Position numbers and translations under genes: made by a program
The notes under the pieces: generated by a model
Database searches by the model: none
What the model was told of the DNA's origin: nothing
The model's input: the letters and a program-made list of their open reading frames with translations, nothing else
Origin: Cheilinus undulatus
Taxonomy: Eukaryota; Chordata; Actinopteri; Labriformes; Labridae
Direction: 5' to 3'
Assembly (NCBI RefSeq): GCF_018320785.1
Contig: NC_054877.1
Location: forward strand, 9,877,030 to 9,941,029
Length of the DNA: 64,000 nt
Shown: positions 36,201 through 39,200 of the stretch, piece after piece
Numbering within the stretch: the stretch's first letter is position 1
Layout: each line of letters opens with the position of its first letter

Positions 36201-39200
36201 CAAACATACCACCAAATTTAACATTATTGACTAATTACAACCAGACATCCTCTACAAGTAATGGAACCTCTCCCTACTGGCCATGAAAGCTGGATAAAGA
36301 AACTTCCTTTCTCTTCAGAACAAGAGTCCAAGCTCTCTTTGGCCTATAGTTTTAGAGGACTTGATTTACAGTCTCTCAATATTGTTGATGTAATGGCACC
36401 TACAACAACGTTTCTTCTTCTTCTACTACTTTTGTCAAACAAAAACCTTCTGGCTTGAACCATTAAATGTTTTTGGAGTATATGACACCACTTTTAAACT
36501 AATAACAGTTCTAAATGAAGAGATTATCTACAGGAGCACCAAACAGCACGTTGTCTAAACATGAATCAAACCAGCTGATCTAAGCTAGCTCTACTAACAC
36601 AGAGGAGTGAAACTACAGTCTGAAACAGAGAGCTTTACACCTGAAACTTACCTCTGCTCTTGTGAGGGATTCCAGATTATCAGAGGACTGGAACCAAAAG
36701 GACCAGAGTGGAAAACAAATGGTCATGAGGAAGGGATTACACTCTGAACCAATTTCAATTAGAAAAAGCTCTCAAACCTTGCCCAAATAAAACAAATGTT
36801 ATACCTACCAGGGCAGCAGGAATATGAGTGTACAGCTGTACATCTCAAACTTCTACCCAGATACGTTTATCAAAATTGTCGTACCCTGATGCTTTTTGAT
36901 ACCTCATGTTCCAAACAATAAATACTCTGTTGTTTTAATGGTTGAAGTTTTCAAAAAGTACAGAAACTTTTCACAGAGCATAGATGTTTCATATTAGTGT
37001 CCCCTAAAACAGCGTTACCCTACCATTTTTCCTTGGAGCCCCCCCTACATGTTCCTAAGAAAAGCAGAGCGCCCCCGCAGGACCCAAGAGAGAGTGAAAG
37101 GTGACACACTGCCACCAAAAATCAACACTGTTTCACTGATAAAACCCTAAAAGAGGCCTATACCTGCTTCTCTTATCAAAAGACATTTGTATAAACTACT
37201 TCATCACTGCTTTATCATGGTTTTAGTCAATATTTGCAAATCTGATTTTGGGAGCCTCGGAGCAGACAAAGCCTCACAGCCCCCCTGGGGGGGTCCCAGA
37301 CCCCAGGTTGGGAAACACTGCCCTGAAAGCACATGCATGGCTTAGCACTGGAACCTTGCCGTCCACCATATTGGTTAGATATTCAATTATCTGCCCAGGA
37401 AATCTCAGTTTTTCCTCTGAAAAGTATGACATCCGGTGCTTTAATTTAAAAATGGACGAACACATGTGTGGTGTTTGTACCGACCAGCCTCTAACAGCAG
37501 GGAGCTGACCAGTTCTAACTCCATGGTAACAAAAATTTGAGAACAGCATTTTCAAACACATGTATCGATATCATTAATGCACCACTATCTTCTCTTTATC
37601 AAACAAGCTACAAAGCTCTATTGAGAGTAAAAAGTGAAGGAAATAAAGAAAAGTTTCCTGTCAGACACACGTCGGTCACCCTTGTTCCTCTTTCCTCATC
37701 CATGTCTACACAAGCAAAAGGAAGTAAAACAGAAATGAGGTTTGGGGGACTGTTAGGACATTTATAGTTGAAAATAGATGATTTTATTGTAGACACTTGT
37801 GAAACACAGGTGCACAGTAAAGAAATAAATCAGTGTTTCCCACAAACAGACTGTATCCGTCCATCCAAGTATATTTACAGCCTCCCAAGTGTATTTGCCT
37901 CCCATTTTTTCCTCTTTATGAGCATTTGTATAATCACCATCTGCATGCTTGAGGGAGACGTTCACTCGTAGATTTCTTTAATGCACCAGCTTAAGTGCAA
38001 TGATGCATGCTAAAATTTATCCCATCGTTTCAACAATTTTCTGCAGTTCCCTGCTGTTAATATCATCTCTCCTCCTGCCCTCTAAAATCAAAGTTAAATT
38101 ATGCTGCCTGATCAAAAATACACCTTCACGTATGCAGCTAACCTGACTATGATAACAGAATATGGAGCGAAACATTTCACAAAGCGAGTGATGTTATTTG
38201 AGTGTATTTACATAATGCACTGCTTATGAATACTGAGAGCAGAAACAAAAAAAATAAACATACAAAACAGGGAGGGGTGGGATGTTCATTCCTGCCAAAC
38301 AGACACGGTTTCTTTCCTTTTTTTATTTTCCTTTAAATCTAACTTTAACCACCTCATATCAAGGTTTGAAAATATGGTATCATGACAGGCCTGGTTGCAC
38401 ATTCAGAATATCTCAAACATGGTCTTGAAGGTAAATACAGACCATTTTATTTTATGTATACTGGAAGAACTGATGAGTTACAAAGCAACTCTGCAGGATG
38501 TTGGTGTGAACTTCACATCTATCAGTAGGCTGAGAGCTAACAACATTACCCCTAGTTAGCAGGATTTTAAACACTTCAACCAAAACAGTGGATATAAAAA
38601 AATGTGACTTTGCAACATGGCACTCTGTGATGTTGTATGGACACAACTGGAAACACAGTTTAGACCTTTTTTCCCTCTCAAAGACCCTCCATACAGACTG
38701 TGTTTTATGCACTAGTGCCACATACACACTGGGTATGCGTTCATCCTTTATTATGTGGATGTTATTCCTTTTTTACTATCTTTCTAGATAATCAGATCAA
38801 GATAAATGTGTTTACAAGCATCTCTGCACTCACTTTCTAATTAACTTGGCCAAATTAAAACCCAGACCATTTTTGTTCCAAGAAACCAGGAACAAGTACT
38901 GATTTAACTTAGACAAAAGAACAAGGTTCAGATTTAGATGCATGTTTTAAAACAATGTGCTTAAACATTGAGAGGTAAAAATAGCCAGACGGTGATCATA
39001 AAAACATTGATATAAAGCTTTAAGTGTCGTGCAAGCAGGTGCATTAAAACCTAAGTGGCTTAGGCTTACAGGCAGAGCCTTTGAGGGTGCTTAAGCACCA
39101 GCCAGCTAATGATGGAAATGATTGTTACCTTGAAATCTTGACAAATTAATTACTGTCTTTACATGTTTTTAATGTACGTTTTACGGTTATTAAACAAGAT

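Follow-up and report, generated by a model that had tools for sequence, protein, structure and literature searches.

A candidate in-frame 36-nt cassette microexon in fish wdr37, with a UAG cluster downstream of its donor

The wdr37 gene and other features of the window

The window is the whole stretch of DNA analysed (64 kb). It carries wdr37 on the minus strand. Coding exons were placed with the human WDR37 protein for a guide, and splice sites were then assigned. In tblastn with this protein, 10 of the 12 true matches are 74-96% identical and the remaining two extend into introns. The features used below are the following.

18104..39348, minus strand: wdr37, model of 13 coding exons (494 aa, microexon left out), guided by human WDR37.
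39211..39348, minus strand: upstream coding exon, from the start codon to CAG (MPVESGSS...RDMMEGQ).
36688..36739, minus strand: acceptor region, with AG at 36688-36689, 52 nt free of AG before it and a branch-like CTCAT.
36652..36687, minus strand: candidate 36-nt cassette microexon, phase 0-0, 12 residues (from sequence, translation and chance estimates).
36646..36651, minus strand: donor GTAAGT after GAG, score 11.6.
36499..36615, minus strand: cluster of nine UAG (+37 to +153 of the downstream intron), candidate Musashi-bound splicing enhancer (binding putative, motif chosen post hoc).
33233..33329, minus strand: downstream coding exon, 32 residues.

Joined without the 36-nt segment, the 13 exons encode an intact WDR37 of 494 residues with a stop codon at its end. 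This is the same protein as human WDR37, which is 494 aa long and is not known to have an insert between EGQ and DSKLP, where the candidate fish microexon would place one. Residues 46 and 47 of the human protein are matched on opposite sides of the intron that bears the segment. At 39211 the upstream exon closes with GAG GGA CAG, before an intron that opens with GTGAAG; the first codons of the downstream exon, from 33329, are GAC TCC AAG. Both borders are at phase 0. The intron between them is 5.9 kb long; use of the microexon would split it into introns of 2,523 and 3,322 nt. Since the protein is intact without the segment, the latter would be an extra, optional cassette, with 506 aa when included.

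Two tandem-repeat regions also occur in the window. One is a degenerate array of ATCC units (1543-2779, about 1.2 kb) whose plus strand is read through by long open frames rich in SIHP; in the other (56075-57346), A+T-rich tandem repeats have diverged and show periods of about 20, 40 and 84 nt. Two open frames were identified by eye and are presumed to be fragments of a Tc1-type transposase (7271-7600, plus strand) and of a LINE-type reverse transcriptase (4641-4985, minus strand). Two weaker microexon-like segments, both open, at phase 0 and lacking a branch-like CTNAY, were found, each pairing a strong acceptor with a weak donor: 42538-42503 (minus strand, 36 nt; acceptor 14.1, donor 3.4) and 7998-8024 (plus strand, 27 nt; acceptor 15.0, donor 4.1).

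Frame and splice sites of the 36-nt segment

On the minus strand, 36687-36652 and its two borders read CTCTGGTCCTTTTGGTTCCAG, TCCTCTGATAATCTGGAATCCCTCACAAGAGCAGAG, GTAAGTTTCAGG; with a longer acceptor side, they read TTGGTTCCAG, TCCTCTGATAATCTGGAATCCCTCACAAGAGCAGAG, GTAAGT. The segment consists of exactly 12 sense codons and its neighbours join at phase 0, as stated in an initial annotation and as seen in the sequence and in the joined exons. It is thus within the size of a cassette microexon (at most 51 nt), in frame and phase-matched to both neighbours. Inclusion would add 12 residues between RDMMEGQ and DSKLP, giving a WDR37 of 506 aa. The position agrees with the one first proposed, after the basic N-terminus and before a region then called a coiled coil (putative). 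The description of this insert as serine-rich is generous (3 of its 12 residues).

Splice sites were scored with vertebrate weight matrices. The donor (11.6) is 2nd of the 13 wdr37 donors and the acceptor (7.65) is 7th of the 14 acceptors, one of which (39378, before the start codon) is assumed. Both scores lie inside the range of the gene's own sites, and both ends are predicted to be usable. The GAG/GTAAGT donor of the initial annotation is indeed near-perfect. The acceptor had been called strong and pyrimidine-rich: it is pyrimidine-rich (77% from -50 to -4, versus 51% for the whole intron) and, because of its rank in the gene, average and not strong. A branch-like CTCAT lies upstream, with its A at -39 (pattern match only).

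The splice sites, the phase, the branch-like site, the AG-free tract and a frame open with or without the segment all agree with the in-frame cassette microexon originally proposed, which is well supported by sequence. That the segment is a real spliced exon is a prediction, and a probable one.

Longer exons sharing the same donor were rejected: the acceptors of the open in-frame alternatives at -54 and -81 score -5.0 and -4.5. An origin from a repeat or a transposon was also rejected, as far as the window goes: no other copy of 36350-37050 occurs there, the only matches besides itself being a 24-nt inverted match at its own place and one of 19 nt. A search of 33000-39800 for structured RNA gave no Rfam match at gathering level. 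The N-terminal part of WDR37 with the insert has no match among solved structures at E up to 10. No homologue was found in prokaryotic genomes and viral contigs, nor in plasmids (three matches at E = 3); these collections cover prokaryotes, viruses and plasmids and are therefore silent on fish.

Chance expectation and codon use

A search of both strands of the window for open phase-0 segments of 3-51 nt gave none, apart from the microexon itself, that reaches its score. Under a first-order Markov null of this intron (200 simulations), 0.035 such segments are expected by summed score, and 0.015 per intron when both sites are required to be as good. A third-order null was trained on wdr37 introns (6 Mb simulated, 28 hits). 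It gives 0.027 in this intron, 0.09 in the approximately 19.8 kb of wdr37 introns and 0.6 over both strands of the window. Judged by splice-site score alone, the site therefore stands out in its intron, but in the whole window such a score lies within chance. None of the 28 simulated hits also combines an AG-free tract of at least 45 nt with a CTNAY site between -50 and -15, a figure that is indicative only because both features were chosen after the real site was seen.

In codon use, the segment looks more like coding sequence than 94% of 9,415 open intronic 36-mers do, and less so than 92% of wdr37's own coding 36-mers. It is mildly favourable to an exon at best.

The downstream UAG cluster

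Nine UAG are found in the first 160 nt downstream of the microexon, versus one in the 160 nt upstream. Of 1,781 overlapping intronic windows (the microexon's own included), 0.22% have at least nine, and 0-5 are found in the 160 nt after the 12 other wdr37 donors. The cluster is the sole site of the window's minus strand with at least nine UAG in 160 nt. On the plus strand, opposite wdr37, dense UAG clusters are found at 21913 and 22338 (12 and 10 in 160 nt).

The Musashi consensus, (G/A)U1-3AGU, is matched three times downstream of the microexon, versus 0 or 1 time at the other donors. With gaps of at most 15 nt, the UAGs form two groups, of four and three. Among the 12 other donors, one has one group of at least three UAGs and none has two; two groups are found in 0.56% of the 1,781 intronic windows. 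The rule used here allows gaps of 0-15 nt; the published one is given as 10-15 nt (PMC4991804).

All 64 trimers were scanned on both sides of the microexon. Downstream TAG ranks first at both widths; its enrichment, corrected over trimers (0.0022 x 128 tests = 0.29), is not significant, and the motif was picked post hoc. Among tetramers, the first rank goes to AGCT, which does not contain UAG. Clusters of UAG in the proximal part of the downstream intron, a feature of Musashi-activated exons, are present here, as a motif chosen post hoc and non-significant over all trimers.

According to Murphy et al., sets of at least three UAGs spaced 10-15 nt are up to 8-fold enriched downstream of exons with raised inclusion in photoreceptors, and photoreceptors mostly skip exon 2A of a Ttc8 minigene when the 15 sites downstream of it are mutated (PMC4991804). 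Matalkah et al. describe UAG-centred MSI1 binding as enriched downstream of Musashi-activated exons (PMC9509328). The Musashi-activated photoreceptor exons (Ttc8 exon 2A, Cep290, Cc2d2a, Prom1) are, like the wdr37 candidate, short and in frame, with UAG clusters downstream and few UAG upstream. The published exons of Ttc8, Cep290, Cc2d2a and Cacna2d4 are at most 30 nt long and conserved to fish (PMC9509328), whereas the wdr37 candidate has 36 nt and is known here from its sequence. According to a review, longer retinal exons are favoured by MSI1, and SRRM3 matters more for the majority of retinal microexons (PMC10987577).

The UAG cluster just downstream of the microexon suggests a Musashi and photoreceptor reading. 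This reading is drawn from the agreement with the published code on the correct side of the exon, and not from the scan alone. Musashi is tentatively proposed as the main activator, of which it is the best single candidate.

Alternative explanations

The initial annotation had suggested neuronal control by an SRRM4-type factor. The canonical layout of zebrafish microexons is a UGC and a UC-rich stretch directly upstream (PMC12626420), and SRRM-type microexons usually carry a UGC near their 3' splice site (PMC12626420, PMC10987577). The wdr37 candidate shares with SRRM3/SRRM4-dependent neural microexons its size class, its frame and a pyrimidine-rich tract before the acceptor, but no UGC was found near its acceptor and no CTCTCT in the 200 nt upstream. 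As the nearest upstream UGC is at -128, the canonical layout is lacking and the cis elements do not support the suggested control. SRRM3/SRRM4 could still act on a real neuronal microexon here by way of an upstream element that departs from the canonical layout. Among 95 conserved zebrafish microexons, 42 are reported to have the full canonical layout and 44 a partial one (PMC12626420), and loss of srrm3/4 affected 82 of 136 neural exons of 28-51 nt in zebrafish (PMC12626424). Both figures, with the pyrimidine-rich tract, speak for such control, and the distant UGC and missing CTCTCT speak against it; it is considered quite unlikely. Other regulatory motifs were searched within 200 nt on either side of the microexon. 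Neither RBFOX sites (TGCATG or GCATG) nor QKI sites (ACTAAY) were found, and a single PTB-type CTCTCT is present, at +20 of the downstream intron.

The segment might instead be a chance pseudoexon, i.e. splice-site look-alikes around 36 open nt that are not spliced in, with a coincidental UAG cluster. The third-order null's expectation of 0.6 segments for the two strands of the window, an intermediate codon use and a UAG enrichment that is non-significant over all trimers are consistent with this. Against it are the 0.027 expected in this intron, the lack among the 28 simulated hits (by post hoc criteria) of any with both the branch-like site and the AG-free tract, and the fact that the minus strand's sole dense UAG cluster adjoins the segment. 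A pseudoexon is held to be somewhat unlikely. Another possibility is a real exon that is constitutive, or otherwise controlled, in this lineage, WDR37 then usually having 506 aa. Nothing marks the microexon as weak, since its donor ranks 2nd of 13 and its acceptor 7th of 14, and the PTB-type CTCTCT at +20 also speaks for this possibility. On the other side, the human protein is not known to have an insert, its residues 46 and 47 flanking the intron, and exons as short as 36 nt are often inefficiently defined. This possibility is given little credence, about as little as SRRM3/SRRM4 control.

Proposed explanation

The preferred reading, that of a Musashi-activated cassette, is as follows. In most cells, the 36-nt exon would be skipped, giving the 494-aa WDR37. 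In Musashi-rich cells, photoreceptors above all, binding of Musashi to the UAG cluster, at 37-153 nt after the donor, would favour use of the microexon and give the 506-aa WDR37. With its 12 additional, mostly polar residues, this form would have a longer stretch from the basic N-terminus to the helical region that precedes the WD40 domain. This longer stretch may adjust partner contacts there, the WD40 domain itself being unaltered. Taken as a whole (a real cassette microexon, activated by Musashi in photoreceptors and yielding a 506-aa WDR37), the statement is possible and is put forward with low confidence.

WDR37 binds the PACS sorting proteins, and the stabilisation is mutual (PMC11457933); in an AlphaFold 3 model, PACS1 is paired with WDR37 at the latter's WD40 domain (PMC12154601). 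Because the insert is N-terminal of the WD40 domain, an effect would be expected on N-terminal contacts and not on the PACS1 interface.

The exon may well be in print already, within supplementary microexon tables. In the available main text of PMC12626420, PMC12626424, PMC9509328 and PMC13281805, the name wdr37 is absent; their microexon lists are in supplementary tables. A literature search for WDR37 and microexon gave a leukaemia circRNA review as its sole match. Among the matches listed for WDR37 alternative splicing, most concern circular RNA by title.

Significance

De novo WDR37 variants are associated with a human syndrome with epilepsy and colobomas, and the vertebrate function of the protein is called unknown (PMC12154601). 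If the segment is unused, it is a well-formed pseudoexon of little interest. If the proposal is true, it adds a microexon candidate whose layout is Musashi-like and not SRRM4-like. More speculatively, and with somewhat less confidence than the proposal itself, fish photoreceptors might have a WDR37 form of their own, produced when Musashi drives inclusion of the microexon; the splicing programme of photoreceptors would then extend to the PACS1/PACS2-WDR37 sorting complex and alter the N-terminal contacts of that complex. If the exon is regulated, the N-terminal insert would be a natural handle on the role of that region and on the cell types in which it acts.
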